A DNA stretch of 64,000 nt from Mytilus galloprovincialis (Eukaryota > Mollusca > Bivalvia > Mytilida > Mytilidae), in contig NC_134848.1 in assembly GCF_965363235.1 (NCBI RefSeq), positions 62,334,181 through 62,398,180 on the forward strand. Direction: 5' to 3'. The notes under the pieces were generated by a model. It was given only the letters and a program-made list of their open reading frames with translations, did no database searches and was not told where the DNA came from. A program made the position numbers and the translations under genes. Below, in pieces: positions 5,001 through 63,546 of this stretch; position 1 is the stretch's first letter, and every line of letters starts with the position of its first letter.

Positions 5001-7319
5001 ATAGTATTTTTCAACGTGTAATTTCCTACTGTCGTTAAAAAAATGGACATTCTAGCGGACATTGAAATTCGTCTCCAATGCTACCAATACAAAATAATTA
5101 TTAGAATATTTTTGGAACCGTTCAGTTTTCTTCTGTTCACGATTGTTTTTCTTTTTGAATTTGTTTTATTGCTTTAATAAAAATTGGGAAGAAAAAAAAT
5201 GCTTTATAATCATGGGGACATGAGATAAATTGGCATAATTATTATCTTATTTGTTACTTGCAAAGAAAGAGTACGGTAACTCAATAATTTTAATCCACTA
5301 AATGTTTTTTTCGAAAACATTTTAATAGGCTATTTTTAACTTTACCACAAGCGCTATTTTCCTGTATTTTTTTTCAAATATAATATTGTGGCTTTTAGTC
5401 TAACACAATAAGAAGCCCAATGACCTATACATCTGATTATGGTTTTTTTTTTATAAAAGCACGATATAATTGAACTTTTCAAGTGATAGAGTATTTATTT
5501 TCATATCTATTTGTGTTCTTTACATCTTTAAATATTTTCCTACTGATATTTTACACTTTTTCATTATGTTCTCCGGCAAAAAACTCAAATATCACACAAT
5601 ACAGTATTTGTATTCATTCAATGAAAACAAACAGAATGAACTTTTGATAAGAGTCAATACGTGAATTTCAAGGTTTTTTCTCGATTAAATTGAAACGCAA
5701 TCTAAAAATGTTTTATAAAAGTGTTTAAATTTAATTCAAATTGTATTTACTTTTCATTAAACCATTTTTCTTTTAAAAAACATGATCGATTAATGTAGTG
5801 TCATTTTGCATTTAATTTTTTTCTCGGTAGCCACCCATATTTTCTGAACCTCTAAATATATTAAGTTCATTTAAGGTGTATGATCCCAATTGTCTTGATG
5901 CTATTAGTCAAATACATATATTACTAGCTTAAAATAATTCACACATTTGATCATATATTAGAATTATATTAAATATGGAATTTGCTCATAGTTATTATAG
6001 ATAGTTTACGGTGTTCGTCCGTATGGTGATCTATATAGTTGCTTACACCAACATTCATTCGTTCTTTGCTCTCCGGTGGTAAGTTGTCTCCTTAGAAGTC
6101 ATAACACACCGCTTTATATTTTGATATGAATTTTAACACCCTAAACCCCTATTTTGTATCTAAATCTTTTACTTGGGGGTTGATCGAACATTGATGTAAT
6201 ATGGCTAGTTCTCATTGCTAATCTTTCATGTTGACTTATTTTTATATTTTAACAAATGGAAATTTAACGATTAAGGGAAGATATAAAATCTTAGACAATG
6301 CTTTGATAAGTGGAAGAGTGTTTTTATAATAATTGAAACTGCTGGTGCATTGTTCCGAATAGATATGTCGTGAAAATAACACGAGACACAATCAAATCAA
6401 AGCATATGATCTCGGACCGTTCTCAGACCAATAGATTTATGTGTAGGTCCTGGATGTAATTTTTTTTTTAAATATATAAACCTGCCGAAAACCAGTTTAA
6501 ACGTACATGTACGCAGAAGTTGAAAATAAGAATAGTCATGATAATTATTGTTTATTTAGTTAGTACAATGTCTGTGTAGTTTATAGTTACCAACGAATGA
6601 AGTATCTTACAAACGTTATCATATTGTACGTCATCTCGTACAATACACTCGTCTGACGTCGAATTATCATATGCAAGGATTGTTGCTCCTCTGTTTCAGA
6701 ATAACGACCGTTTAAAAAAACTATTATTAAATGATGGAACTAAAAAGCAGAAAAAACGAACGTTCCGTGTGCCTGTTGTCTAGATATATAATTCATTGAC
6801 AATTTGGCGGGAAATGATTCTCTTTAGATTTTTCGTAATTTTACATTGGCATAATTTTTCTTTCAAATACAATTAGAAAATAACAAGGAGTTTATGATAT
6901 TTTCGAATATAGCCATTAACCTTTATGTAATACAATTTTGAAAAGAAAAGTATGGCTCGGTTGGCAAAATTTTATTGACACCACAAAGATAAAACAAGAT
7001 GATTCCGAATATCTGACAAACATTAAACGACAAGGGTAGAGAACATCCTCGAACTAACATCATAATGTTACATTTTTGCAGAACCATTTATCAATTATTG
7101 TATAGTAGAATATTGATAATTTAAAGTGAAATGTCCTCTTACATGTAGCTTTAACAGAATATTAAAAGAACAGTTTATTTTGGGTGGTATGATTATTTAA
7201 ATGGCTTTATTATTTTACAAATAATGTTGGGAGTCGAGCTTACAATAGCAATTGTATTATTTTGTAGTTTAAATTTATGAACTTCATATGTGTTATATCA
7301 TTTCAGCTAGGAACTTTTT
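2008..7319. other. Long non-genic AT-rich stretch
   Basis: No exon with supported splice sites is seen. The stretch holds a short TA/TG microsatellite near 3239-3263, a reverse piece of family B near 3470-3535 and a family E copy at 4045-4262. Short open frames here, such as 4125-4391 on the minus strand, fall inside the repeats and look incidental. Confidence 0.6.
4045..4262 (+). repeat. Family E dispersed repeat
   Basis: This matches 48655-48862 in the same orientation over about 200 bp, from a ...ACCAGAGG... motif to GCAGATCCT. Reverse-strand relatives lie at 24270-24400 and 61900-62115. No terminal inverted repeat or RNA polymerase III box was seen, so the class is open. Confidence 0.7.
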
Positions 7320-7610
7320 TCTACGGACATAAAGCTGGATATATTATGCTTAACAATTCTACGGAAAATGAGCTGGGAATATTTTGCTTAACAATTCTAC
7401 GGACAGAAAGCTTGGAATATTTTACTTAAGAATTCTAAATACAAAAAGCTTGAAATATTTTCCTTGTCAATTATACGGACTAAAACCTGGAAAAAATTTC
7501 TTTATTAATTATGCGGACTAAAAGCTTGAAATATTTTGTTTCATAATTCTACTAATGAAAAGTGGGAGTGTTTTCTTTAAAAATTATACAAACAAAAGGC
7601 AAGAACTATA
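7320..7610 (+). repeat. Degenerate 38 bp repeats
   Basis: Several diverged units resemble the clean array that follows: each holds a variant of AATTCTACGGACAAAAGCTTGG and then AATATTTT. Unit length and sequence drift here, unlike the uniform units from 7621 on. This is probably the older edge of the same array. Confidence 0.7.
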
Positions 7611-7620
7611 ACTAGTTCAG

Positions 7621-8380
7621 TGTTTGCTTCACAATTCTTCAGACAAAAGGCAAGGAATATTTTGCTTAACAATTCTTCAGACAAAAGGCAAGGAATATTT
7701 TGCTTAACAATTCTTCAGACAAAAGGCAAGGAATATTTTGCTTCACAATTCTTCAGACAAAAGGCAAGGAATATTTTGCTTCACAATTCTTCAGACAAAA
7801 GGCAGGGAATATTTTGCTTAACAATTCTTCAGACAAAAGGCAGGGAATATTTTGCTTAACAATTCTTCAGACAAAAGGCAAGGAATATTTTGCTTCACAA
7901 TTCTTCAGACAAAAGGCAAGGAATATTTTGCTTCACAATTCTTCAGACAAAAGGCAGGGAATATTTTGCTTAACAATTCTTCAGACAAAAGGCAGGGAAT
8001 ATTTTGCTTAACAATTCTTCAGACAAAAGGCAAGGAATATTTTGCTTCACAATTCTTCAGACAAAAGGCAAGGAATATTTTGCTTCACAATTCTTCAGAC
8101 AAAAGGCAGGGAATATTTTGCTTAACAATTCTTCAGACAAAAGGCAGGGAATATTTTGCTTCACAATTCTTCAGACAAAAGGCAAGGAATATTTTGCTTC
8201 ACAATTCTTCAGACAAAAGGCAAGGAATATTTTGCTTCACAATTCTTCAGACAAAAGGCAAGGAATATTTTGCTTCACAATTCTTCAGACAAAAGGCAAG
8301 GAATATTTTGCTTCACAATTCTTCAGACAAAAGGCAAGGGATATTTTGCTTCACAATTCTACGGACAAAAGACAAGGAAT
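7621..8380 (+). repeat. Tandem array, 20 units of 38 bp
   Basis: The core AGACAAAAGG recurs every 38 bp from 7641 to 8325 (19 units), and a 20th, slightly changed unit follows at about 8363. No unit gains or loses a base. Two sites vary (CTTAAC/CTTCAC and CAAGG/CAGGG), and their pattern repeats every four units, giving a 152 bp higher-order repeat. Because 38 is not a multiple of three, each frame rotates through the unit, yet all three plus-strand frames stay open for long runs. The array has no plus-strand ATG, and it abuts the start of the C2H2/homeodomain-like gene. Confidence 0.9.
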
Positions 8381-8388
8381 ACAGTCAC

Positions 8389-39503: not shown

Positions 39504-42500
39504 CTTTTCACGAACAATGCGAAATATTATTTACTAATCTAAACCGGATGTTGAACTACTATTGTGTCCGGATCTTAACTGGTTAATTAAAAAAAAAGAT
39601 CCCCCATAAGGGAAACATTTCATTTGTCAAACTTTGATTAATCTAAAGCACCGGACAATAGATTCTTCTTTTATACTTAAGGCCTACAGATAACATGACA
39701 GGCTTCAATCATATTTTTATACTCAGTGTAAATTAATCTGCATTGCTATCAGTCAAAATGGGATTGTATAATCACTCCTTATCCCTGCTTTTTAAACAGT
39801 GTCTAAGTATAACCCGATTAATTCAGTCGGTATATTCTGCTGATCTACGATTACTACATTAACAAGTAGGAGAGATCGATTACGGGGAGGGACTGAATTA
39901 TGCGGGTTATTCTAATAATGATATGCTAACATACATAAATATATATATAGCTATACTAACATGTGATATCTTGCTTGCAGACAACATCCAGATTGGAGGC
40001 GGCAACGGTAAGATTGGCTTTGCATCGCTTAAAATTTGATTAACTTATTTTAGACCAAATTTGCGTGCTTTTTCGTGTTGATCGCAAAATAAAACATGAA
40101 ATAAAATAAGCTAAAGATTTACATGTAGTTTAGTGTGGAATTAATTTAAATGTTTGTTCTTGAATAATGTTATCTATCAAATTACACGTCTGTGTTTGAA
40201 TATTTTTAACCAAATTAAGATAACTAAATTTAAATGAGATATCAAAAAGTTTGATTTTTTGCTAATCAAAAAATAGAACAAAATGTGTTTTGATTCAGAC
40301 TATCAAAAACCTACAACGTACAACATTCAAAAGACTACACAACTTTGGCTTAATGCAAGGAAAACGCCTTTTCCCTGAAATTTCCAAATAAAAGATTATA
40401 TACTCATGCTAATAAATGATTAAAAGATAATTTATTTAGATTTCTATAAACTTTTCAACAAAATAATTGCCATTTTTTTTGGTAAAACTTTTTCATTCGT
40501 ATAATTTGGATGTTTAGTTAAACAACAATACTAACCTAAATTTAAAACTATTTTAGATTTTGGCTTTGACGCAGCATGGGAAAACGATTTCCAGTTTAAC
40601 GGTGGAGCCGGTAAGATATTGTTGCGCACAGACGCACTGCGCATTATCATTATTAACATCGGTCACACATGTTTGTTGTGATTGATAAGATAAACTTGTT
40701 GGTTTATCCAAACTTTAATCTTTGATTTATTAAGGCATTGAAATATTAAAAAGTTACATTAAGTGTTGATAATGATAATTTCCATCTTCATATTTGACTT
40801 GACAAGCCGACTTGTCTGTTTAATGCGCATGCTATTTTGTTTACTTAGAAAGACATACAGTGACATTAACATTATATAAACCTCATTTCGATATATAAAT
40901 TCAATTATAAGATATTTCTATTTTCTTTCTTTACGTTGTCATTTTCTCTATAAAACATTCTTTTCCACTAACAACCTGCATGCGCATGCGTTTATAATCT
41001 GCTGTGCGTACGCACCGATTTCATTTACAGTTCCAACTCAGCAAACAGAAATATGCGACTTGCAAAAGAATCAAATACAAAAGGATGAATTGTTTGCTAT
41101 TTTAGGTTTTTAGATAAACATCCTTATAAGTATACATTATAGAATTAAAACAACAACTTTATGTAACATTTAGCAAATATGTACTTTGAAAAAGAAATAA
41201 TTGCATACTTTACATGGATGTTTATTTAAAGAAACTGTAACTATGATTTTAATATGTAACAATCAGTTATTTCGTCCTATTTTTTTTCCTCTGGTGGAGG
41301 AGGAGTTTTTTCCTCTGGTGGCGGAGGCGGACCATTATCCTTAGCCGCCAATGGTGCTGGAGGAGCCAATGTTATGAAACTAGGCAATGGAATAGAAGTT
41401 ATCGATACCGGTGCAGCTAAAATATTCGACCTTGGTTTCGGACCTGAAAACCTTGAAAAGATTCTTCAAACTCAAGCTGTTCAGGCTATACTAAATGATG
41501 CCACTGGTACTGGTGGTGGCCATGGAGGCGCTGGCGGCAATGGTGCTGGCGGTCACGGTGGCGTTGGAGGTCATGGTGGTGGCGGCGGCCACGGTGGTGC
41601 TAAAGCAGGTCATGGTGGTGGTAATGGCGGCCATGGAGGTCCAAGAGACATTTTCATAGACCAAACAGGACACGCAGGTGGGGCTGGAGTTGATTTTCTA
41701 GGTGGGGGACAACAACTTGTCTTCGATCAAGGAGCTCCAATTGGCGGGGCGGTTGGCATAAACGCGGGTCAATTTGTCGACTTTGGTATTGGGGGTCATG
41801 GTGGACAAGCAGGGGGCGGGGGTCATGGTGGAATTGTAGATATGGGACATGGTGGTGCCGGACATGGAGGTGCCGGAGGCCACGGCGGACTAGGAGGAGG
41901 AGGTCACGGTGGATTCGTAGATGTTGGACATGGCGGTGCTGGAGGCCACGGCGGTGCCGGAGGCCACGGCGGACTCGGAGGAGGAGGCCATGGTGGACAT
42001 GTAGATTTCGGACACGGAGGAGGCGGGGGTCACGGTGGGGGAGGCAATGGTGGGCAAGGCAGTGGGAAAGGAGATATAAATATCGGAATTGGATTAGGCT
42101 CTGGAGGCGGCATGGGTCAAGGAATTGCCGGTGGAGGAAAAGCTGTCGGAATAGGAATGGGAGGTGGCGGTGGACACCATGGCGGCGCCGGTGGACATGG
42201 AGGCAGTGGTCATGGTGGCTCCGGGGGACATGGAGGCGGTGGTCACGGCGGAGCTGGTGGACATGGCGGCGCTGGTGGTCACGGAGGCGCTGGTGGACAT
42301 GGAGGCGGTGGTCACGGCGGCGCTGGTGGACATGGAAGCGCTGGAGGTCACGGAGGTGCTGGTGGACATGGATTAGGAGCCGATTTCGGATTTTTGCCTC
42401 AAGATATAGGAATGGGTTTCGGAACTAAAGATCTAGCACTCGGTGTTGGAGTAGGTCCTGGAAGTATTGGCGCAGGGATATCTGGAGGTCAAGGAGGAGC

Positions 42501-45500
42501 TGGGATGGGAATGACCCATGACTCAGTCGGCATTGGTGGAGGAACTCATGGCGGTGGTGGAGCAGCAATGGGAGCTGCAGATGCCCAAGTTGGCCTGGGC
42601 TTTTCGGCTGGTGATGGCTTGGGTCTTGGTATGAGTAAACCAGGAGGTAACAGAAATGTTAAATGTGTTCTGTGTAGCATGTGACTTAACGAAATTTACT
42701 AACTTCTGACCTTTCGTACTTCTCTCTCCCTACTCTATATGTATGTATTCATGTATTAACCTTGCCATCTTTACTATTTACAGAACAACACGCACCTCGA
42801 TCTATTGTTATTTGTAAGTATTTAAGGACCGTTTTGGATACTGGTTTATCTTTGGTGATGATGTTGGTTTTTGTTCCTATCAGACAATAAGTTCAAGTTG
42901 GCGCATGCCCATTGAAGGATAAATGGGAAAAAAAATATATCAAAATACTTGAAATGTTAAGAATATGTTCATATATTTAAAAGACAAAAATGTTGGTTTG
43001 CCTTGTTGTATTTATTCATTTCTATTTGTTTATTTTGTATTTCAAAATTTGCATTGTATTTAATTTTTTCAAATTTTGGTTATAGGATATGGTCTCGAAT
43101 TTATGGTTGTGGTGATTGTTGAATTGCAAATTTTATAGCACTTTTGTCGTAAAGTTCATTTTAAGCCTTTTGAAAACGATTATTAATATAAAGCATCATC
43201 AGTATTACTCTTCTACAACACTTAAATAAACGATGAGTTATTAAAAAATAATCTTGAAAAATCCATTGTTCTTTTAATATCATCTAGTTAACATCAAATT
43301 ATATGTATACGTGTGAATGTGTTGTTTTGTTCTCGTATTATATTAACACATTAACACATGTTTATATGTTGTGTATTAATATATCTGTTTTTATCTTTTT
43401 TCGTCACATGATCAGCTGATGCTGACAATGGTAAGTCTTCCTCGCACTATTTTTTTCTTTCTTTTTGAATTTGATTTAAAAATATAATTCTTTTAATTAA
43501 ATATTGATGAGATATAAAAAAAAAAATAATAATAATTGGAAGAAAATAATACAGAAAGTAATTCGCCATTTTCCATTACATTTATTCATTTCGATTTTTT
43601 TTTAAATTTTTGTATTCAAAAATATAAACAAAACACCCTTTCTCATATTGGCATTTCCTGCTTCAATGAATAACGAATAAAACAATAAAAATATTAAAAA
43701 CTTCATAAGAGGAACAATAATTTTGATTGGTCGCTAGCATTTACTATTTTACTAACATTTATATAACTACTTGTAGTTCAAGTGAACGCTGCTCCCGGCG
43801 GTGGTGCACAAGCTGATCTTGTTATAAGTAAGTCTATATTTTTACATTATTGCATAGTTCGCTATTAATGTATAAATAAAGTAGCATTGTTTTTGCTTGT
43901 TTATTCCCATGTTTTTAATATGGAAAAGTTAATATTTATTTTTTTGCAAATTGATAAAAAAAAAAAAATACAAACCGTTTAAATAAAGCATTGAAAAATA
44001 AATCATTGAATTAAAGTCAAAAGTCAAAGAAATAAAAAAAAAGGAACTATTGAGATGCCGTTTATTGTGATTTAGTATGTATTATGCTGCTTTTTTTCTG
44101 CCCATTGTAACCATGCCTATATTATCTGCTTTCAGACGGCGCTGACAATGTCAATGGTAATGTAAAAAACAACAAAACAGCGCGCTTGCAAACACTGAAA
44201 GCGCTCTACTTTAACTTCTAACCAAACAAAATGATCAAACACTGTTTACTTTGCATTTATGATTGATAGAGATTTTATGAGAGCTGATATATCTGTCACA
44301 TAATGCTCTTAGTTGACATACGCCAATGCGATATCCATGGCTGTTAGTTGACACACACCAATGCGATATCAATGGCTGTTAGTTGACACACGCCAATGCG
44401 ATATCCATGGCTCTTAGTTGACACACGCCAATGCGATATTCTTGGCTGTAAGTTGACACACGCCAATGCAATATCCATAGCTCTTAGTTGACACACGTCA
44501 ATGCGATATTATTGGATCTTAGTTAAAACACGCCAATGCGATATTCATGAATGCTTTAAATGTAACATCATTCTATTTAATGTAATATTTAAACAGTTTT
44601 TGATCATCTTCTTATCTAACATATCCAGAATTCATGACTGACAAAATACCGTTTCTCCTTTTTCACTAAGTTTTTGTTTGTTTGTGTTTTTGATCACGTG
44701 GTTTATCTAACATATCTAGAATCTTATGACTGTAACTGACTAAATACCGTCTCTACTTCTCTTCCCAGAATTCTTATTTATAATAGTGCTGGAATTTTAC
44801 TTCTTATGTTACTGCTCTTTTTATATACACGTTTTTGTTTGTGTTTTAAGGAAGTTGACTTTGGTTTAGGGAGATAACTCTTAAAAATCAGTCACGCGTT
44901 TGAAAAAGTCAAATTACAAGTTTCATCAATGTATTTTTAGCATTTACCTGAAACAGATTGTAAATAATCTATGTCACCTAGAAGTTTAGAATATATTTAT
45001 GAAAATGGTTGACACCAACGTATTAAGAACGATAACTCTTTAAATCGGTAGTGCGTTTGTAACAGACAGCTGCTTCGATGCTTTTTAAGCATCTGTGTGA
45101 AACAGTTTTAAAAACAAATCTGAATTAAAGTTATGAAAAAATTATTGAAACATTTATAAGAGTTGTGTCCCTTACCAAAGTAAAAATATTTTTCCATTGA
45201 TGATCGATATCGTTCGAAATACATAACCACAAAGATTAATACATCTTATTTCTTTTTTTTTTTTTTTGTATTCGTTATACTATTTGGCTTGACATTTGTT
45301 TTTCGATGACATAAGAAATAATAGACAATTTCTATTTCATCTCATTCAAAAAACTTAAAGAGAACAATACTGTTTATAAGAAAAGAATATTACATTTCCT
45401 AAGCATAGGTTGTTGAAAGTGTTCGATCTTTAGACTCATGAACGTTAAATATGACTGTGCACGTGTTTATGGAATTCATGAATATGAATTTGGACAGCAT

Positions 45501-47177
45501 CTGTAAAATTTATTTGCGTTGGGTTTTTTGTTTTGCCGAATAAGATAAAAATTAAACAAATATTACTAGAAGCTTTTAGCGAATATCTACTCAATGAAGG
45601 ACCAACCAAATTCTGAAAATATTAAAAAAAAGTTCAAATGTTGCTTATAAACGGGAGTTTTAGATTTTTCATTTGGTTTATGTATTCGTCTTTTTCAGTG
45701 GACGGTGGTATTAATTTCGGACATTTAGGCGGAAACGGAGGTCACTTTGCAGGTAGGAATATATCAAAGTTTCTTATTTGCAAATGATTGAGAAAACATA
45801 ACATATTTGAAATAAAAGATTTTTTTAAAGAAAATGAAAACAAAGAACTTAAAAAAGCAGTTAATAAACAGATTTGTTTTTCATCTTTAAACAGTTTTTG
45901 ATATCTACTCTGTATCTTTCTTTAAAAAAAACCATTGTGTTTCCGATTAAATGCTTAGTTTGATATTAAAATATTATTAAGATATCAAGCACATATATTT
46001 AAATTTAGTTCATGTTACATTTATTTAGCTGTTTAGTAATAAAAATATGCACGAATCTCGTTTATCGTGTAGAAACCTCGTTTAACTTGCTGAAATCTCG
46101 TTTAACATGCTGAAATCTCGTTTAAGGATTGTCTACAGGTACTTAAGCTGCAGTTGGCAAAACCTTTCCGAATTTGGTATCCACAAAAAAGTATACAGGT
46201 ATTAATGATAAGTTTATTTTTACCTATTTATAGCTGATGCCGGACACCATGGTTCTCAACACCCAGTAGCAATCATTGGAATCGACAAACACGGCCAAGG
46301 CGGACACGGTGGACAAGGTGGACACGGTGGACAAGGTGGACATGGTGGACATGGTGGTCAAGGAGGTGTTATTGATAACGGAGCTCAATGGGACCAAGGA
46401 TTCGGACATTTCGATCAGGGAGCAAATGGAGCTTGGGACCAAGGATTTAACGGACATATCGATGCTGGTCATGGTGTCGTAGACCTCGGAATCGGACAAG
46501 GATCTGGACATGTTTCCGGCCATGGAAAATCTGGTGGCAAAGGTCAGTATATAGTTTTTCCGCAATAGATTTATGATACGACACCTTTACTAATACTATT
46601 TAAAGACTTTACATTTTATCTCGCCCTTTCATGGCACTTGGTCAATCAGTTCGGATTTCATGCGTGTCCGTTTGTTATTGTTTTATATCTGGACTTGAGT
46701 GATTGTACTTACACAGTGGTATATGACGGCTATAAAAGTCAAAGTTATTGTTCCTTCCAGCAGATATAAAACATGACGCGTGTTATAGACTTATAACATA
46801 GTTTATTGAGCAATTTCCTCACTGGTTATAACAATAAATAAGAATATTTATTCGATGTGCATGTTGACCGAATGACTGCTGTTTTGTTATGGTTTTTTTA
46901 ATCAAAATTATGATGATAACATAATGCAGAACATATTATAATCCATGCATTTAGGTGGAACAAGTAGTTAATTTTTAATTTAAAAAAAAAAATGTCGTTT
47001 TGATATGACCATACAGGTACAATTTATGTGATACTTTTTATAGATTAAAAATAAGTGAAATTAAAATTAATCTCAAATCAAGTTAAATGTTATTTCATGT
47101 TAATGAATGCATGATTATTTATATTAATTATATATGTCAAAACCAATTATTTTTTTTTTCTTACAGTTCTTCATTAA
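32764..47177 (+). CDS. Secreted Gly/His-rich structural matrix protein
   Basis: Seventeen coding exons join in phase: 32764-32812, 34117-34131, 34268-34282, 37070-37150, 37657-37704, 38261-38395, 38695-38730, 39981-40007, 40557-40610, 41267-42646, 42784-42813, 43416-43430, 43777-43827, 44136-44156, 45699-45752, 46234-46542 and 47167-47177, giving 776 residues. All introns are phase 1 and all internal exons are multiples of three; three are only 15 bp. A signal peptide (MNKLILLALVVVALECASA) is followed by Val-Pro-Lys repeats (VPVKYVPIVKHVPVYKTVPK), a short His cluster and a patterned linker. The 1380 bp exon encodes mostly GGHGG-type repeats with a non-repetitive block (EVIDTGAAKIFDLGFG) near its start. 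Exon 16 has GGHGGQ repeats and the protein ends KVLH. Such proteins form extracellular materials in molluscs (shell, byssus, periostracum); which one cannot be read here. The histidines could bind metals or pH-switch the assembly. Confidence 0.85.
32921..33177 (+). repeat. Two-copy tandem repeat, about 131 bp, in intron 1
   Basis: ATGCATTCTATATGAATATG at 32921 recurs, slightly changed, at 33052, and both copies end with AAAATAAACCCT and GCAGATTTCCTAAA. A partial third copy may begin near 32831 (GTGCATTCTATAG). It lies in intron 1 of the structural gene. Confidence 0.8.
36251..36309 (+). repeat. 30 bp direct duplication in intron 3
   Basis: Two adjoining copies of GCTTACTCTATCCATACTTC plus CGGTCTCG lie at 36251 and 36281 with no mismatch in that stretch. 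It lies in intron 3 of the structural gene and no role is evident. Confidence 0.85.
37198..37280 (-). repeat. Family G fragment in intron 4
   Basis: The reverse complement (TACGGAATCAGCCGAGTTGT) matches 19405-19492 and 50424-50525. The forward form lies 48 bp after the exon 4 donor of the structural gene. Confidence 0.6.
44306..44550 (+). repeat. Tandem repeat, 7 units of 35 bp, in intron 14
   Basis: The unit contains TTAGTTGACACACGCCAATG and CGATATCCATGGCT. It starts at 44306, 44341, 44376 and so on, with the last unit diverged. It lies in intron 14 of the structural gene, and no coding role is evident. Confidence 0.85.
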
Positions 47178-47740: not shown

Positions 47741-48538
47741 TATACCCCCGCTTTAAAAAAGGTGGGTATACTGTTTTACCTCTGTCTGTCAGTCCGTCCG
47801 TCCATCAGTCCGTCTGTCCATCAGTCCGTCCGTCAGTCAGTCCGTCCCATGAAACTTTCGTCACATTTTTCTCAGGAACTACACATCCACCCTTTCTGTA
47901 ATTTGGTATCAACATTTATATATGTCAGCCATACCGTGTGATGCGTTTTCAGATTCATCACTTGACAACTTCCTGTTTACCGAACACTTGTCTGATTTTA
48001 CACATGATAGCCAAGTTGAAAATTTTCGTCACATTTTTCTCAGGAACTACAATACAAGGATTTCTGAAATTTGGTTTCAGGATTTATATAAGTCAGCTAT
48101 ACCGTGTGATGCGTTTTCAGATTCATCACTCGACAACTTCCTGTTTACCAAACACTTGTATGATTTTACACATGATAGCCAAGTTGAAAATTTTCGTCAC
48201 ATTTTTCTCAGGAACTACAATACAAGGATTTCTGAAATTTGGTTTCAGGATTTATATAAGTCAGCTATACCGTGTGATGCGTTTTCAGATTCATCACTCG
48301 ACTACTTCCTGCTTACCGAACACTTGTATGATTTTACACATGATAACCAAGTTAAAAATTTTCGTCACATTTTTCTCAGGAACTACAATACAAGGATTTC
48401 TGAAATTTGGTTTCAGGATTTTTATAAGTCAGCTATACCGTGTGATGCGTTTTCAAATTCATCACTCGACAACTTCCTGTTTACCGAACACTTGCATATT
48501 TTTACACTATTAATATTATCCACTTGCGGCGGGGGTAT
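47741..48538. mobile_element. TIR-bounded element with 168 bp tandem repeats
   Basis: The ends TATACCCCCGC (47741) and GCGGGGGTAT (48529-48538) are inverted copies. A GTCCGTCC-type microsatellite (about 47790-47850) is followed by about four tandem 168 bp units, with TCAGCCATACCGTGTGATGC starting at 47925 and 48093. A period divisible by three leaves two overlapping frames open for about 190-210 codons. The likely class is a non-autonomous DNA element of mollusc type. Confidence 0.7.
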
Positions 48539-49404: not shown

Positions 49405-49409
49405 TTAGA

Positions 49410-49774
49410 CTAGCTATATGGCGCCAATTTGCCCCCCCAACCTGGGACATAGCAAATATTCATTCATTATATCTAAGACGATTCGTGACGTAGGACAGGT
49501 GTAAACAATTACAGCGGTGTTAAACGTTGTAATGGTACCATACCTTCACTCGTATCTGAACCAATAGTGTTATATCACAACATAGAAAGGCACTAGCTAT
49601 ATGGCGCCAATTTGTCCCCCTAACCTAGGACAAAGCAAATATTCATTCATTATATCTAAGACGATTCGTGACGTTGGACAGGTGTAAACAATTGCAGCGG
49701 TGTTAAACGTTGTAATGGTACCATACCTTCACTCGTATCTGAACCAATAGTGTTACATCACAACATAGAAAGGC
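49410..49774 (+). repeat. 183 bp tandem duplication
   Basis: CTAGCTATATGGCGCCAATT begins at 49410 and again at 49593. The two copies are nearly identical through CAACATAGAAAGGCA, which points to a recent event. Confidence 0.9.
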
Positions 49775-50423
49775 ACACCATAAAATATAAATTCAAACGG
49801 CTTAACTCAATCAAAAGACATATTAACACAAGTGAACAATGCATTCTGTGCGTCTGTCATACATGTGAGAGGATCAGCTGGCTATATAACCAGGTGCAAT
49901 CCACCATTTTCTACATAAGAAAATTCCTGTACCAAGTCAGGCATATGACTGTTGTTAAACATTCGTTTGAGGTTTTGATTTTGCCTGACAGATGCCCACA
50001 GCCAGAACTTTAATTCAGTGGTTGTCGTAATTTGCTATCTGTTATATTGGTTTTTTTTTTATTGTTGTTGGAATTATATGTAAAAGTGGACTTTGTGTCT
50101 TTTTGTCCTACCCTAAATTGCTATAGGCGTCACGAATATATGTCCATTCTATTCTAAAACCCGTGTCCTTAACTTCAGGTTATACACTGATGTGTATTGT
50201 GTCACATATATAGGAACAAATTCACCTAGTTGTGTGTATTTCAGTGCTGCCCTGCTCCTTTTTATAAGGAAAGTTTATAATAAATAAAAAAAAGTATGAA
50301 CAAAACAATTAACACCCAACGCAAGTTAAAAAAAAAAGAAGTCCAATAAATCTGACTCAATCAACGTTCGATCATATCAACCAACGGAACTAACGAAAAC
50401 CAACCGTCATATTCCTAAACAAT

Positions 50424-53989: not shown

Positions 53990-56900
53990 TATTAGACATT
54001 AATATATTTGCATGAGCCGATACTGTTCCATAAGGATTTGTAGCTGTACATTTAAGTATTCCAGAATCACGGATGTGAGTAAGCTGAATTCTCCCGCCAT
54101 CTGAGCTGGTCACGTGAGACGGCATGGTGTGGCTATCACGGCTACTAGTATGCAGATACTTGAAAAAGAAAATATTTTGTTTGTGAAAACAAGTATAATC
54201 CTAAAAATACTGAACTCCGAGGAAAATTCAAAACGGAAAGTACCTATAAATCAAATGGCATATCAAAAGCTAAAACACATCAAACGATTCGAAAACAATT
54301 GTCATATTCCTGACTTTGTTTATGTGATACATATTTGTTTTTCGTTCATTTTTTCCTATAAAAAAATAAGGCCGTTAGTTTTCTCGTTTGAATTGTTTTA
54401 CATTGTCATATCGGGGCCCTTTATAGCTGACTATGCAGTATGGGCTATGCTCATTGTTGAAGGCCGTACGGTGACCTACAGTTGTTAATGTCTGTGTCAT
54501 TTTGGTCTCTTGTGGACAGTTGTCTCATTGGCAATCATACCACATCTTCTTTTTTATATTTGGTACAGACATTTTCTTAGGTACATTTATTAAAATGATT
54601 GCACCCAAAGAGCTTTTTTTGGTGACCTTCACCGAAAACGCTTATACTTAAAAAAAAATTAAGCTAGGTATGGTCAATATGTATAAATGTTAGAAGCTGT
54701 ATTACCGAAAAAAGACACACGGAAAGAATAGAAGACAGAGAAAAATTAAATTAGGATGAGAAAGTTGTCATTTAAGTTTATAAATAATTTCTTTATTTAT
54801 CAACAAATTCTGATTTATCAAAATTATTTTAAAAATAATGACAGTACTGAAGCACTGTCTACTCAGGTGATAATACCTCAGGTGATAATACCTCAGGTGA
54901 TAATACCTGAAAATTAGTTTTGGGATTTTAACCGATCTATAAACATGACAAATACACGCACATAAACAAGTGCAAAATAAATTCCTTATCGTTTGATATA
55001 AATATATCTCTTCAATGAATACTGATAAAAATATTTTTGTTAATTAATAATATCAAAATGTATATATATATATTGTAGTATATAGATATATATAAGTAAA
55101 AAAATCATTGATTATATCAATGCACACGTACCGATAGTCTGGGAACCTGACACTATATATCAATGTCGTAAGCCGACTTCCGGTTCGAATATATATATAA
55201 TTTGCGGGAAAATATGAATGGTTACTCGTATCCAAACTTTTACAAAAAAAAACAACAGAAAAAGTGTCCGCCATGCACTTGCATTGCACTATTATAAGAA
55301 GAATATAAGAATAGAATAATATACAAATGGATAGAAATCATATATACACGTAACTGTTATTTTAATATAATATATAACAACAAATCAGTGTATATTGATT
55401 TGTATCACTACAACATAATAATTAGTACGGGAAAGTTGAATTTCCTGTCATTTATTCGTCATCCAAACACGAAGTTGTCTCAGATTTTTCTCCCTCTGTA
55501 CATTAATGAGGGGCGTAATAGTGATAGTGCACTGAAGAACGCGAAATAAAGTTGCCATTTCACAATGAACGAACAATTAAAAATGTCTTGCACGTTGATC
55601 TTTTTACCGACTTCTTGAAACACTGTGAATAACCAACCTTTTTCACGGCTGCACGTGAAAAAAAATTGGTAAAACACTTTGCCTGAAAATAACCGATTAC
55701 CACACTCATTAATCTCAGTTTCAGGTAAAGAGATATGTGAATTTTTTTTTCCGCGACAAGTGCTTTTGACCATCCACAAGAACTTGTGGTCATCCGATGT
55801 TCAGTATTTCAGTACTTTGTTTTTACTTACTGGGGTTTAAGACCAGGCAATGGTTGGTTGGGGATTTCCAGTAGCCTTCCTTACATACATAGGTTTACTT
55901 ACTGAGGTGTAAGACCAGGTAATGGTCGGCTGCGGATTTCTAGTAGCCGTCCTTACATACATAGGTTTACTTACTGAGGTGTAAGACCAGGTAATGGTTG
56001 GTTGAGGATTTCTAGTAGCCGTCCTTACATACATAGGTTTACTTACTGAGGTGTAAGACCAGGTAATGGTTGGTTGAAGATGTCCAGTAGCCGTCCTTAC
56101 ATACATAGTTTGTTTTACTTACTGAGGTGTAAGACCAGGTAATGGTCGGCTGCGGATTTCTAGTAGCCGTCCTTACATGCATAGTTTGTTTACATACTTA
56201 GGTGTAAGACCAGGTAATGGTCGGTTGAGGATTTCTAGTAGCCGTCCTTACATACATAGTTTGTTTACTTACTGAGGTGTAAGACCAGGTAATGGTCGGC
56301 TGCGGATTTCTAGTAGCCGTCCTTACATACATAGTTTGTTTACTTACTGATGTTTAAGACCAGGTAATGGTTGGCTGGGAATTTCCAGGAGCCGTCCTTA
56401 CATACATAGTTTTACTTACTGAGGTGTAAGACCAGGTAATGGTTGGCTGATGATTTGAAGTAGCCGTCCTTGCATACATAGTATGTTTACTTACTGAGGT
56501 GTAAGACCAGGTCATGGCTGGCTGAGGATTTCTAGTAGCCGTCCTTACATACATAGTTTGTTTACTGACTGAGGTGTAAGACCAGGTAATGGTTGGCTGG
56601 GAATTTCTATCAGCCGTCCGTACATACATAGTTTGTTTACTTACTGAGGTGTAAGACCAGGTAATGGTCGGCTGAGTATTTCTAGTAGCCGTCCTTACAT
56701 ACATATTTTAACTTACTGAGGTGTAAGACCACATTATGGTTGGCTGGGAGTTTCCAGGAGCCGTCCTTACATACATAGTTTTACTTACCGAGGCGTAAGA
56801 CCAGGTTATGGTCGGCTAAAGATTTAAAGTAGCCGTCCTTGTATACATAGTATGTTTACTTACTGAGGTGTTAGACCAGGTCATGGCTGGCTGAGGATTT

Positions 56901-59900
56901 CTAGTAGCCATCCTTACATACATAGTTTGTTTACTTACTGAGGTGTAAGACCAGGTAATGGTCGGCTGAGGATTTCTAGTAGCCGTCCTTACATACATAT
57001 TTTTACTTACTGAGGTGTAAGACCGGGTAATGGTCGGCTGAAGATTTAAAGTAGCCGTCCTTGTATACATAGTTTGTTTACTTACTGAGGTGTAAGACCA
57101 GGTCATGGCTGGCTGAGGATTTCTAGTAGCCATCCTTACATACATAGTTTGTTTACTTACTGAGGTGTAAGACCAGGTAATGGTCTGCTGAGGATTTCTA
57201 GTAGCCGTCCTTACATACATAGTTTACTTACTGAGGTGTAAGACCAGGTAATGGTTGGTTGGGGAATTCCAGTAGAATTCCTTACATACATAGTTTGTTT
57301 ACTTACTGATGTTTAAGACCAGGTAATGCTTGGCTTAGGATTTCTAGTAGTCGTTCTAACATACATAGTTTGTTTACCTACTGAGGTGTAAGACTAGGTA
57401 ATGGTTGACTGAGGATTTCCAGTAGCCGTCCTTGTATACATAGTTTGTTTACTTACTAAGGTGGAAGACCAGGTAAGGGTTGGCTGAGGATTTGTAGTAG
57501 CCGTCCTTACATGCATAGTTTGTTTACTTACTGAGGTGCAAGACCAGGTAATGGTCTGCTGAGGATTTCTAGTAGCCGTCCTTACATACATAGTTTTACC
57601 TACTGAGGTGTAAGACCAGGTAATGGTTGGCTGGGAATTTCCAGTAGCCGTCCTTACATACATAGTTTTACTTACTGAGGTGTTAGACCAGGTAATTGTT
57701 GGTTTGGGATTTCCAGTAGACTTCCTTAAATACATAGTTTGTTTACTTACTGAGGTGTAAGACCAGCTAATGGTTGGCTGAGGATTTCTAGGAGCCGTCC
57801 TTACATACATAGTTTGTTTACTTACTGAGGTGTAAGACCAGGTAATGGTTGGCTGAGGATTTCCAGTAGCTTCACACAGGAAGCTTTGTATTTCTCCTGA
57901 ATGTTTAACTGCAGATGAAGGTGGAACAGTGATCTGTGGTGCATCTAAAGGTTAGCAATAAGATACTGTATTACATATGTTTTGTTCAGGCTACTGTCTA
58001 ATAATTACATTGCATATATATTTTTTTAGGATACGTTGTTTTGATTGGCTAACAGCAACCTTGCGTCCTTCTGAAATTAACATTCGTTACACCTCAATAA
58101 AATTAAAAAAGGAAGAATTCAATTCTTAAATGCATAACAATTAATAAATTAATGAGAAATCCTGTTACAATATATCTCTTGATATTATTGAACCAGATTA
58201 ACCTATTCATCAGTTTGATTTCTTCATCCCAAACTATTTTTCTTTCACTAATAAAAAGCAGATGTGACATCATTGCCAATGAGAAATCTTACCCAAAACA
58301 AATTACGCAGGAATTAACAATTATAGGTCACCGTACGTCCTTTAATAATGGAGAACGCCTATTCCGCATAATCAGTTAACTTAATTTTTAATTAATAGAG
58401 CTTAACATATTTGCAGTGTAAAAAGGGTCCTTCATTTATTTAATCCTTTGATATTTGAGACCATTTCTTTCTGTTCTTTATATTTGAGGTTCTATATCAT
58501 CTATTATTTATATTTCAGCATCCCACTATTTTCTAGCCTTTATTTTATTTGTCCATTTTATTAACCTCTTTATTTGTTTTGCCCATTATTGTCACATCTG
58601 TAAACCCCACCCAGATTCCCATGAAAAAGTTAGGAACCCTCACCTCCTGTTACAGATACCACTGTGTTTGCTTGGGTTTGTCCAGCATCATTAATGGCAA
58701 TACACAAATACAACGCATTATCATCAAAAGTGGCGTTTGAAATCTGAAGAGTTTTTTGATGAATTGTTTTCTGTAAACATGGTAAATTTGTTATAAAACA
58801 ATTAAAATTACATTAGACTGCTAGTACTCTCATATCTATAATGAGTGTTTTATTTGTTGTAGTAATGTGGGGTGGATAAATACCCGGCCACGTCCGTGCT
58901 ATGGTTTTGTTTGATACTTTTTTGCTTCGAATCGATCAGATGACATAATTATTTTTCAAATGATTTTCAAAGTTCTTTCTTATATATTGTATTGTTGCAT
59001 CACTGTACTTGATTATGGTAAGGTTGAGTGCTGCCAACATGTTTAAAATCGTTATGTGCTTGTCCCAAGTCAAGAGCCTGTAGTTAAGGGATTAACCTTG
59101 GTTCATGTCTGTCATGTTTGTCAATCATACCAAATCTTCTTATTTTTATTCAAGCATTAAATATTAAACTGTTATGTTCATTTGTTTAGTCCTATAATAC
59201 ATGTATTCACTTGTTCTCATCTATATTCTGTATTTTTACTCTACATTTAACTTGTACAATGTTGTATTACGATATTTTGTTTTGTCGCAAAAAGTAAAGA
59301 AATAGAAAAACATAAAATTAAAAAATCATTGTGATCAATTTGAAAGAAACTCTATTATGAAAAAAACTGTTTTATGGTAAAAAGTTTAAAAGACATACTT
59401 TAACAGAAATAAACCAGGCACTCAACCCTCATCTCATACGCAGATGTTATTAAGGAATATTTTTGGTGTGAATATATAATGTATTAAGTTTAGGGAGTAC
59501 ACTTTATAGAAAGATGCACAGACTGATAATTTCTTTTGGGAATATTAATGAAACACATGCAGGGTTTATTCACGACAGCTTTGGAAATCATTTTTTGCGC
59601 TGTTTTAGAGAGTTAAGTGAGACCAGAACATATACATGTAAACATATATTTTACATACGTGATGTGCGTGCCACGTTATTTGTGGCTCCGGATATCCGGT
59701 TGCATTGCAGTTCAATGTAACAGATGATCCATATCTAACTTCGACTATTTGTGTTGAACTGATCACTGGAGGTATATGTGGACGCAATGTAGTTGGTTTT
59801 ACTACAAATCAGTAATGTCATGTTGATGAGAGATGCTTAATCTAAACGTCAATGAGTTATTGATAAATTTGCAATAAATAAACATGTAAGGGGTTAATGT

Positions 59901-61844
59901 TTCAATAAAAATGCAAGGTTGTCTGATGCCACCAAAACGACAGTCAAAAAATAAAGGCAGAAGGGATCCGTTTACGCACAAATGTCTTAACAGCATGTTT
60001 TTAAGTGGTAGTTTTTACAATAATATTTAACATGTTAAATTCAAATACATGTACTTGTATATTTAATGAGCATGGATATGTATAGCAACGAAAAGTTAAT
60101 TGTACCTTTCAAAAGTTATTTGTGGTTGTAATTTGTAATAATTCTCTAATCTTACTGAAACCTGACAGGAATTTAATTTTACTGGCATCACAACTCGTGC
60201 CAAGGTCTGTTTTGTTTACTTTGTTAATGTAATATTTATAACGTCTCTTTCGACGACATATCTTTAAGTTGACGCATGTAAAATGACAATTTACCAGAAG
60301 AGTAAGAATTCAAACCGATCCTTCAAATAATTTGTGTGAAACCATATGTATCTTCCCAGATTAGAGATTAAAAACGTTATTTAGGCAAAGCTTCGGCGAC
60401 AAAGCTGTACTTAACAATATTGGGGAGATGTCGGTACGCACATACAAGAGATATTCTAATGCAATTATTTTGTATCAATGGTTCTGATTGGATGACAGTT
60501 AGCGTAAAATTCTCTATCTCCTTGTCTGTAACTAAGGAAGCCGATATTTTGAATTGCTGAATGTATTGACATGTAATGTCTACAATAATTAGCCAAAAAA
60601 ACTCACATATTAGAATAGAGATAACTGTATTGTATTTGAAGCTTTTCGAACGTCCATCGGTGTGACTAGACAACTTTGTTCAGTTCCTTCATTGGCGTCA
60701 AAAAGGGTCAAATAATTAACAAGTCAGTAGCAATCCTGGTGAAAGGGGTAGAAAAATGTTTTTGTAACTTTACATTTCACTGAGGTATAGTGTAGATATG
60801 GTAAAGTTTTTACCTGTATGGTTTACTATGACGTGAACAAATTTGATATCAGTTCCAGCAGGATTCGTTGCCTTGCAGAAATAAGTGTTACTATCGTATA
60901 CACCAGCGTTATGAATTATTAGATACGGACCATGAATTTGGACATTGGATGGAAACTTGTGCTACAACGAAACGTAAATTATATATAAAAAAAGAAGATG
61001 TGGTATGATTGCCAATGAGACAACTCTCCACAAGATATCAAATGACCCAGAAATAAACAACTATTGGTCACTGTCTTCTTTTTCAAAGTTGAGCCTTTTA
61101 GTTTTAGTTCATTTTTATTATTATTACGAAATTTAAAAGGGATACAAACTTTAATAACAGCATAGATAAGTAGGAATGACAAACAATATTACATTGCTTG
61201 AAATGAATTACCCTGATTTCACAGTGAAATCAAAATCGATTATAACTCACTGACGTCGTACAATAATAGTATTTGTCAAGACGTGAATAATGTCGTATCA
61301 AAGCATTCCTTAATTAAATAAACTCATCATAGATACCAGGACTAAATTTGTATATACGTCAGACGCGCGTTTCGTCTACCAAAAAAAAAGTTAAAAAAGC
61401 AAAATAAAGTACAAAGTTGAAGAGCATTGAGATCCAAAATTCCTAAGTGTTGCCAAATACAGCTAAGGTAATCTATGCCTGAAGTTGAAAAGCCTTATTA
61501 TTTCAAAAAATTCAAAATTTTGTGTTCATTAACGTGTTGTTAGGTCACTCGTTGAATGTTGTTTTTTTCTATTAGAATAGTTCGATTATTTATTCTGTAA
61601 TTAATATTAGATAAGTGCCCATTGTTACACAATCACAATAATAAATTTACGTTAATAGAGTTTACAGTACATACATCGAAAGTGTCCCAGGTTACAGTAG
61701 GCGTGGGAAAGCCTTGTACTTGACAGGCTACAACTGATGATGACTTTCCTTCTGGTATGACTAACTTCTGTTGGAGGGTGATCAGGGGTGGAATCATAAA
61801 GACTGTTGTTGTTGCAAGAGTGGTCGCAGAAGCTGTTGTAGTTT
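53990..61844 (-). CDS. Immunoglobulin-superfamily protein, three I-set domains (partial)
   Basis: On the minus strand, six exons join in phase: 61675-61844, 60814-60961, 59659-59801, 58644-58770, 57826-57944 and 53990-54158. They form three Ig domains of 106, 90 and 96 residues, each split by a phase-0 intron and bounded by phase-1 introns. Domain 1 has a Thr-rich lead, then VVACQVQGFPTPTVTW and NTYFCKATNPAG. Domain 2 has VTLNCNATGYPEPQITW and ALYLCIAINDAG. Domain 3 has SFLCEATGNPQPTITW and GILKCTATNPYG. The cysteine pair, the Trp and the N-x-x-G end match I-set domains of adhesion, hemicentin-like or receptor proteins. The first exon found needs one base from an upstream exon and the last one ends in phase 1, so both ends are missing; no signal peptide, anchor or stop was found. 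It is either part of a longer gene or a partial copy. Confidence 0.8.
54205..54325 (+). repeat. Family F dispersed repeat
   Basis: It runs from CTGAACTCCGAGGAAAATTC to GTCATATTCCTGACTT, matching 26041-26160 and, in part, 62695-62765. A reverse relative is at 1080-1190. Confidence 0.65.
54340..54560 (-). repeat. Family B repeat, reverse copy
   Basis: The reverse complement matches 23313-23510, including TTCAACAATGAGCATAGCCC and ATGTGGTATGATTGCCAATG. It lies in the intron between the two exons of Ig domain 3. Confidence 0.8.
54864..54909 (+). repeat. 15 bp x 3 short tandem repeat
   Basis: AGGTGATAATACCTC occurs three times head to tail. Each unit is itself a near palindrome (AGGT...ACCT). Confidence 0.9.
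55830..57825 (-). repeat. Array of 27 exon-end plus splice-donor units
   Basis: About 27 units of 72 or 75 bp lie directly after (minus strand) the first exon of Ig domain 3. Each is a copy of the exon's last 45-50 bases (encoding NPQPTITWSYTS) plus the donor GTAAGTAAAC and a short piece of intron. Most units keep the GTAAGT (seen as ACTTAC on the plus strand). Unit lengths are multiples of three, so several units in a row read open as VSKQTMYVRTATRNPQPTIT and similar. None has a proper acceptor. The open frames reported at 55837-57810 are these units. Confidence 0.9.
58250..58375 (+). repeat. Family B repeat, partial
   Basis: A diverged copy with ATTGCCAATGAGAAATCTTA and TAGGTCACCGTACGTCCTTT lies in the intron between Ig domains 2 and 3. 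Confidence 0.65.
60990..61075 (+). repeat. Family B repeat head
   Basis: A short copy starting GAAGATGTGGTATGATTGCC lies in the intron between the two exons of Ig domain 1. Confidence 0.7.
61318..61462 (+). repeat. Family C dispersed repeat
   Basis: It starts AAACTCATCATAGATACCAG and includes CAGACGCGCGTTTCGTCTAC and GAAGAGCATTGAGATCC. It lies in the same intron of the Ig gene. Confidence 0.75.
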
Positions 61845-63546
61845 CTGTAAGCATACATAAAATAGAATCAATACCAATAGACACATTGTGGAATATGCCG
61901 GAGTACCTGAGATCATCCCCAGTTTTTGCTTCGGTTCGTGTTGCTTAATCTTGAGATTTCTGTGTTGTTTCTTTTGTACTATTATGTGTCTGTTTTTTGT
62001 TTGTTTTTTTTTTTCATTTTTAGCCATGGGGTTGTCAGTTTATTTTTGATTTATGAGTTTGACTGTTTCTCTGGTATCTTTTGCCCCTCTTTAATCTTTC
62101 TCTATCTTCCCATGAAATCATCCTTGAAACATCCCACCGTTGCTTGCAAAGTGCTAGCGAAAACGGTACTTATTATCGTGAAAAGACATTTTGGTATTAT
62201 GTAGTTTGACACCAATATTTTGTAGGGATGCAAAAGAAGTAGTTCGAGTTCAGAACTTTACAATAATAAGTAGTGAAGCAATTGTGCTTGTATTGGAACT
62301 TTTGATTCTAATATGACGTTTTTCTTATGTTTCGAGTATACACCCGTGGTATAATTCAAATATATTCATAGGTCAGCTAATAGAAAACTTCATGACTTAT
62401 TTTACCTGTTTCCCCACATCAGAATGATTTACTTTCATTTCAAATGGTGTAAACGACGTCACTGAACGATTACGTAATAATGAAATGATTATACGGGAAA
62501 ATGTATTTGTTTTACAACGGATTGGCTCGTTATGCTGATGTTTGACCCCTAGCTTTTACTCATGTACCCATACTTTACACAAAGGGTTAACCCGTGGTAA
62601 AGTCACGATAAATTCAAGCCCCAGTCAATTATTCCTTAAACAGAAGAGAAATGGGGTGCATTAATCATGTGTTAATGGTAAACTGACAAAAAATACCAAT
62701 ACCAAACTCCGAAGAAATTCAAAATGGAAAGTAAAAACATCAAGCGATTAAAATAACTGTCGAATTACTTTTGTTTTGATTTCTTTTGTATTTTCCTTGA
62801 TTTTGTTGTTCTTTAATACAATTAACGGTACCAATTTTTCTGCACCAGATGCGCATTTCGACAAAACATGTCTCTTCAGTGATGCTCGTGACCAAAATAT
62901 GTAAAATCCAAAGCTTATATAAAAGATGTAGAGCTATAATCCAAAAGTTCCAAAAAGTATAGCCAAATCCGTGAAAGGAATCAGAGTTTTGCATGAGGGA
63001 GATACATTCCTTAATTTATAATAGTTTTGAACATTGTGTAACAGCAAATTTAATAACACAAAAACTCCATATATTCATGCCAGTACCGGAGTATTGGCTA
63101 CTGGGCTACTTAGCATTACACATTTCCAAGGATTTAACCCATTTAGAAGTACAAGTTACAGTATAAGATTAAACCAAACTATAAAGGTCATTTGAAAAGG
63201 GTTTTACTCATCAGATAGACACAAAGGCATTTACAAACGATAGTGTTTCCAAGCCTATTAGTATGAGATAATTAAGGTAGTGGGTATTGTTTTATGTGGT
63301 TTTAAAGATATTTAATTAGCATGTTTAATCTGAGTCCGTGTACATAAACAGTATAAATATTGCTTTGTTCGACATCCAAAAACACATCAGCATCTAGATT
63401 GCAGTCAGTCATTCAATTTCAACGAATTGTTCGTAATCGCTTGTTAAAATTTTGAATATGATTCTAACCTCCATTAATAAAAAAAGAGTCTTATTTTTAA
63501 CATTAGGCGCAAGTACTTGCCGTCAACAGTATGCTCGTTCGAAAAA
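61845..63546. other. Stretch 5' of the Ig exons
   Basis: No upstream exon of the Ig gene could be identified on the minus strand. The stretch holds a reverse family E copy (61900-62115), a family F piece (62695-62765) and a family C copy (62815-62975). The open frames at 61926-62204 and 62740-62994 are repeat-derived. Confidence 0.5.

Follow-up and report, generated by a model that had tools for sequence, protein, structure and literature searches.

A stretch of 64,000 nucleotides from contig NC_134848.1 of the mussel Mytilus galloprovincialis (assembly GCF_965363235.1; hereafter, the window) contains, on its minus strand, exons of three consecutive immunoglobulin (Ig) domains, and the intron that splits the third of these domains, Ig3, begins with 27 tandem copies of the end of the preceding exon together with its 5′ splice site. 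Most probably, though by no means certainly, the array is a minisatellite that took in a splice junction, in which case the 27 extra donors would be decoys or neutral repeat DNA. A preliminary description of this DNA, made from its sequence, had put forward two readings: an Ig domain whose length is varied by alternative donors, and a decoy array that is tolerated because it is frame-neutral.

Structure of the Array at the End of Ig3 Exon A

Tandem Repeats Finder (TRF) reported a single array at positions 55822-57870 of the window, with a period of 75 bp, 27.7 copies and 87% matches. When read on the minus strand, it resolves into 28 donor-delimited units, i.e., the exon's own end (unit 1) and 27 copies of it, with donors running from position 57825 to position 55830. 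The units are made up of 45 bp derived from exon A of Ig3 and 26-31 bp derived from the intron, the latter including the donor; the tandem unit spans the junction, which places the array among minisatellites at exon-intron boundaries. The end of exon A reads ...TGGTCTTACACCTCA and is followed by GTAAGT. The sequence AGT over the junction (the last exon base A, then GT) is present in 27 of the 28 units, unit 15 having CGGT instead. A DNA search of the assembly, which ignores very common words, found the array at one locus.

The preliminary description had counted about 27 tandem units that carry an exon end and a donor, and this count is borne out by our analysis (27 copies and the exon's own end, 28 donors). 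It had also ascribed a strong GTAAGT to every unit and unit lengths of 72 or 75 bp, multiples of three, to the array. The GT is indeed kept in 28 of 28 units, but the complete GTAAGT is found in 24 (the exceptions being units 4, 7, 18 and 23); likewise, 25 of the 27 spacings between unit donors are 75 bp (16 cases) or 72 bp (nine cases), but one is 71 bp and one is 76 bp. These last two are not divisible by three; the array leaves the exon frame between units 9 and 10 and returns to it between units 24 and 25. The open reading frame of exon A, which had been said to reach about position 57394, does continue through unit 6 and ends at a TAG in unit 7 (Table 1). That the units lack an acceptor holds only approximately: a CAG preceded by 14 pyrimidines in 20 bases occurs in the consensus unit, while the same crude count gives 12 of 20 for the true acceptor.

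Past the donor array and before the acceptor, the same intron also contains a 15-bp unit in three exact copies (54862-54908), as detected by TRF.

Ancestral Donor of the Array

Each of the three Ig domains is split by an intron a few codons past the strand-C tryptophan. The joined exons of Ig1-Ig3 matched the Pfam I-set family (PF07679) with an E-value of 7.1e-40 in three stretches, the best of which (172-260) lies in Ig3, and Ig3 is similar to Ig domains of receptor phosphatases and Roundabout. A search of the 1.38 Gb genome for relatives of Ig3 retrieved 83 matches at E <= 1, four of them from its own locus. The donor comparison covered plus-strand matches, with the minus-strand matches L009, L012, L016 and L017 left out. 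In six distinct paralogous exons (L008, L011, L013, L014, L015 and one exon contained in both L018 and L020) a GT in the same phase was found at the place homologous to the unit-1 donor. The donor is GTAAGT in three of these exons, GTAAGA in one and GTATTA in two, and the junction of L011 reads GTAAGTAAACA, as at Ig3. L010 and L019 contain Ig domains with no GT at that place and are apparently unsplit exons.

TRF analysis of L008-L020 (13 loci at 12 distinct places, ~1.5 kb per side) revealed no array with GTAAG in its unit, and TRF analysis of the window revealed no donor array in the introns of Ig1 or Ig2. Since the place of the donor is common to Ig1, Ig2 and the six paralogous exons, at none of which such an array was found, the array most likely grew from one existing junction, unit 1 being the ancestral donor. 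The origin by duplication of an exon-intron junction that the preliminary description had envisaged is thus supported.

Do the Array Units Have a Function?

A complete GTAAGT in 24 of 28 units would suit a role in splicing regulation, whereby uncut donor-like sites bind U1 small nuclear ribonucleoprotein en masse and either alter splicing efficiency or shield the long intron from premature polyadenylation. A precedent is provided by an intronic minisatellite of C. elegans that has been linked to alternative splicing (PMC4039745). We nevertheless consider such a role unlikely. The donor columns are not specially conserved: the donor 9-mer contains 7 changes, and 14 of the 67 nine-base windows of the unit (the donor's own included) have as few or fewer, while by distinct change types 32 of the 67 are as low as the donor or lower. 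In addition, the 13 paralogous loci, within the flanks given above, have no donor array.

A still smaller probability, close to negligible, should be given to the length-variable Ig domain, in which the donors of units 1-6 would be used alternatively and each unit would lengthen Ig3 by 24-25 residues past strand C. In its favour, the exon frame is open across units 2-6, units 1-7 are spaced by 72 or 75 bp and the GT is intact at all donors of units 1-6. We compared these features with a neutral simulation, which introduced into the consensus, for each unit, as many changes of each kind as had been observed. Units 2-6 were jointly open in 27% of the simulations, and the frame-keeping open extension holds for these units only, the stop in unit 7 leaving 22 of the 27 copies beyond the reach of the open frame. 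Stops are present in seven of the 26 internal units (2-27), with 5.7 +/- 2.1 expected from the simulation; one of the seven, unit 9, owes its stop to its short intron part. For a unit length divisible by three, the prior is about one third.

Distinct changes relative to unit 1 are 13 nonsynonymous to 4 synonymous in units 2-6 and 34 to 10 in units 2-27, the neutral reference being the 2.86:1 ratio among all possible single changes; when changes are counted per unit, the numbers for units 2-6 are 15 and 5. Purifying selection on units 2-6 is thus not seen in the ratio of distinct changes. The insert would repeat the B-C turn and strand C without their partner strands and would be unlikely to fit the fold, and it is absent from the two PDB matches whose alignments were viewed. 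Finally, units 8 and 21 have a common stop haplotype, TAAACATCA, which suggests that an untranslatable, stop-bearing unit was itself copied or converted. The stops, the open early units, the ratio of nonsynonymous to synonymous changes and the conservation of the donor all fit neutral expectation; a coding function of the early units is unsupported, and so is the first reading of the preliminary description, the length-variable domain.

Donor Arrays at Other Exon Ends

We searched the genome with a pattern in which AGGTAAGT occurs three times with gaps of 50-80 bp. The search retrieved 1822 matches genome-wide, and the reversed motif gave 500. With CAGTAAGT, which is the motif found at Ig3, there were 1254 matches versus 609 for its reversal, the matches listed for CAGTAAGT being dominated by two large arrays. 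Since long arrays inflate match counts, we relied on distinct arrays counted by eye. Among the matches listed for AGGTAAGT, which cover 123.4 Mb of contig C1, there are at least 19 distinct arrays, versus 7 on C1 for the reversed motif. The upstream edge is visible in 17 of the 19 (the edges of L040 and L062 were not covered). In nine of these 17, the array starts where an exon that has a homologue ends (E <= 0.005; Table 1). Five are preceded by an open frame for which no homologue was found (L021, L061, L072, L073 and L075), and three are without a clear exon (L069, L071 and L076). The exon frames of L072 and L061 have no PDB match and no Pfam match. The frame at L071 was rejected as an exon, its Molybdop_Fe4S4 match being weak (E 0.0017, under the cut-off) and located away from the edge of the array. 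Thus, donor arrays recur, some of them in well-known genes, and the Ig3 array is not unique.

In the nine homology-supported arrays, the second donor is located 64-84 bp downstream of the first one, and in seven of the nine its use would shift the frame or add a stop. At L068, whose top match is an NADP-dependent oxidoreductase (1e-12), the period is 64 bp, which is not divisible by three; periods of other exon-end arrays include 64, 67, 74 and 82 bp. Since the second donor breaks the frame in so many of these genes, the first donor should mostly be used if the genes work, and frame-breaking arrays elsewhere mean that the Ig3 array needs no frame-neutral explanation. Tolerance of exon-end arrays appears not to depend on frame. 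It follows that, of the second reading of the preliminary description, the decoy array may be retained as a conclusion from sequence, while frame-neutrality as the cause of its tolerance may not.

The same arrays bear on the idea that the Ig3 gene is broken or changing, with the array diverting splicing to stop-ending frames, so that less Ig3 protein is made and the array acts as a partial loss-of-function allele. Any donor past unit 6 does meet a stop, read-through ending in unit 7. However, comparable frame-breaking arrays are found at the ends of exons similar to those of glycogen debranching enzyme, HEATR1 and the IP3 receptor, genes that are expected to be needed, and the joined Ig1-Ig3 exons yield intact domains. 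We therefore hold this idea to be highly improbable.

Of all 14 exon-like arrays, four (L066, L070, L073 and L075) would keep an open reading frame if the second donor were used. At L066 and L070, the frame is open and kept at all four later donors examined. Judged by their reading frames, these two arrays would be better candidates than Ig3 for a protein of variable length.

Arrays on the Acceptor Side

Searches for triple occurrences of acceptor motifs retrieved 72 matches for TTTTGCAG versus 291 for its reversal and 1020 matches for TTTTACAG versus 715. From among the matches listed, we examined 18 acceptor-motif arrays of C1, and with the downstream edge not covered in L087 and L090, 16 are left; a TTTTGCAG array near C1:18211385 overlaps another sampled array and was not counted apart. 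Two of the 16 (L086 and L094) run into exons with homologues, namely PPWD1 (E 2.7e-19) and a cyclic-nucleotide phosphodiesterase fragment (E 7.9e-5, though its score of 22.9 bits falls short of the cut-off of 24.8). Three more (L079, L089 and L093) look exon-like by eye and have no Pfam match below E 0.1. Arrays thus exist on the acceptor side too, and these data do not establish whether they are rarer there than on the donor side.

Proposed Origin of the Array

We propose that ~75 bp across the junction of Ig3 exon A with its intron were duplicated in tandem and that the array then expanded via unequal exchange or slippage. The 5′-most donor, at position 57825, would be the original one and the one most likely used, and the other 27 would be intronic decoys that are silent or seldom used. 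Arrays may persist at donors because the first copy leaves the original exon and its donor unchanged, and the spliceosome could pick the upstream donor, which is the first to be transcribed and yields the shortest exon, no matter what period the copies have. Donor usage, the mutational route and the reason for tolerance are what we infer for the Ig3 array.

Several observations weigh against this proposal. Splicing studies report that, when donors of equal strength compete, the intron-proximal one may be preferred, which would predict read-through into the array. At the PDZ and RIC1 exons (two of nine), as well as in two exon-like arrays without a homologue, reading on as far as the second donor keeps an open frame. 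The motif used to find the arrays preselects donors, and the share of arrays located at exon ends is in itself no sign that arrays expand preferentially there. In the Ig3 array, the per-unit count of changes in units 2-27 is 69 nonsynonymous to 32 synonymous (2.2:1), slightly under the 2.86:1 reference, and there are 1.1 changes per column in the second half of the exon part and 1.0 in the intron part, with 2.9 in the first half of the exon part; the lower change in the former two might reflect constraint.

A broader generalization, to which we give less than even chances, is that exon-end donor arrays make up a large class (perhaps ~200 genome-wide for AGGTAAGT, mostly at exon-like ends) in which the 5′-most donor is nearly always chosen regardless of frame; the figure of ~200 is an extrapolation from the at least 19 arrays among the matches listed in ~123 Mb of C1. 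Should this be the case, the class would serve as a natural test of the view that the choice between equal 5′ splice sites is set by transcription order or exon definition. If the 5′-most donor wins, nature would have put donors in competition in many genes, each of them offering several to dozens of like sites. The Ig3 array also shows that an open frame and a unit length divisible by three are, in such an array, weak evidence of coding use.

Comparison with Known Systems

Variable internal tandem repeats have been described at exon-intron boundaries in human segmental duplications (PMC2812944); they share with the Ig3 array minisatellite units at such a boundary that are able to alter splicing. 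Those units average 30 bp in four copies and can form new introns, whereas the Ig3 array has 28 copies of an exon end and donor, at and past the end of the exon, and the formation of a new intron is not among its shown features. In the polyubiquitin gene UBC (PMC10809524), an array of dual-specific AGGT sites leads to variable splicing. As at Ig3, every tandem unit has the same splice-site sequence, but in UBC the AGGT serves as both donor and acceptor and isoforms differ in the number of units. A UBC-like array of this kind was rejected for Ig3, since AG and GT overlap by the G in CAGTAAGT; splicing from unit to unit would not be seamless, and splicing to the CAG of the array would put TAA immediately after the exon. 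In potato, a duplication over an intron-exon boundary created an intron (PMC4974935). Tandem duplication copied splicing signals across the boundary in both cases, yet in potato a new intron was made, while the Ig3 array merely adds donors within an existing one. GYNGYN tandem donors (PMC1779574) are, likewise, neighbouring donors of one exon, but they lie a few bases apart, and those of Ig3 are 71-76 bp apart and 28 in number. As far as shown, the Ig3 array would work like none of the human boundary repeats, UBC or the potato duplication. Among titles and abstract openings of the open-access literature, we found no report of exon-end donor arrays in molluscs, and in a paper on Daphnia tandem repeats (PMC3152781), the splice terms tried do not occur.

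Gene Context and Other Repeats in the Window

Locations of the exons and array features, as well as the homologues of the nine exon-end arrays on C1, are collected in Table 1.

Table 1. Features of the Ig locus (window coordinates) and homologues of exons at whose ends donor arrays begin on contig C1.
Feature	Location	Strand	Description
Ig3 exon A	57826..57944	-	First half of third Ig domain; two bases of a split codon, then 39 codons; phase-0 end. Basis: sequence, translation, I-set/Ig_3 Pfam matches of joined domains, paralogous exons with the same end
Array unit 1, exon part	57826-57870	-	Terminal part of Ig3 exon A
Unit 1 donor GTAAGT, ancestral 5′ splice site	57820..57825	-	GT at the homologous place in six paralogous exons
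Units 2-28 (27 copies)	55822..57795	-	Exon-derived 45 bp and intron-derived part; last copy (donor 55830) degenerate in intron part
Open frame of exon A across units 2-6	57394..57951	-	Ends at TAG in unit 7; translation and list of open reading frames
Ig3 exon B	53990..54158	-	169 nt; second half of Ig domain; starts at 54158 after acceptor TTTTTCAAG
Ig2 region	58630..59808	-	Open frames with exon A (then GTATGT) and exon B; split internally as in Ig3; donor array absent
Ig1 region	60770..61944	-	Open frames with exon A (then GTATGT; exon A by pattern) and exon B; split internally as in Ig3; donor array absent
Fz domain			E 2.3e-9
EGF_CA			E 1.3e-10
PDZ (L066)			E 1.1e-7; 81 bp
Ankyrin			E 9.5e-5, just over cut-off
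RIC1 propeller fragment (L070)			E 4.2e-6, far under curated whole-domain score; 72 bp
Prostaglandin reductase 1 (L068)	C1:83557239-83558339		E 1.2e-11; 64-bp array
Glycogen debranching enzyme (L031)			E 1.6e-7; second donor at 64 bp, frame-breaking
IP3 receptor (L064)			E 1.9e-4; second donor at 74 bp, frame-breaking
HEATR1 (L074)			E 0.005, weakest of the nine; second donor at 67 bp, frame-breaking

Ten open frames elsewhere in the window, nine of them on the minus strand, had no Pfam match, and neither the 3′ part of the gene nor its complete set of domains was found among them. A search of a phage collection gave no match and carries no information. On the plus strand, the window contains Gly-His-rich repeats at 41282-42372 and 46212-46568; the frame of the latter reads HGGQGGHGG and has no Pfam match. 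Other arrays detected in the window by TRF are located at 7319-8381, 44305-44549, 47852-48507 and 49409-49776, with periods of 38, 35, 168 and 183 bp, and the 168-bp array is covered by an open frame of 233 codons.

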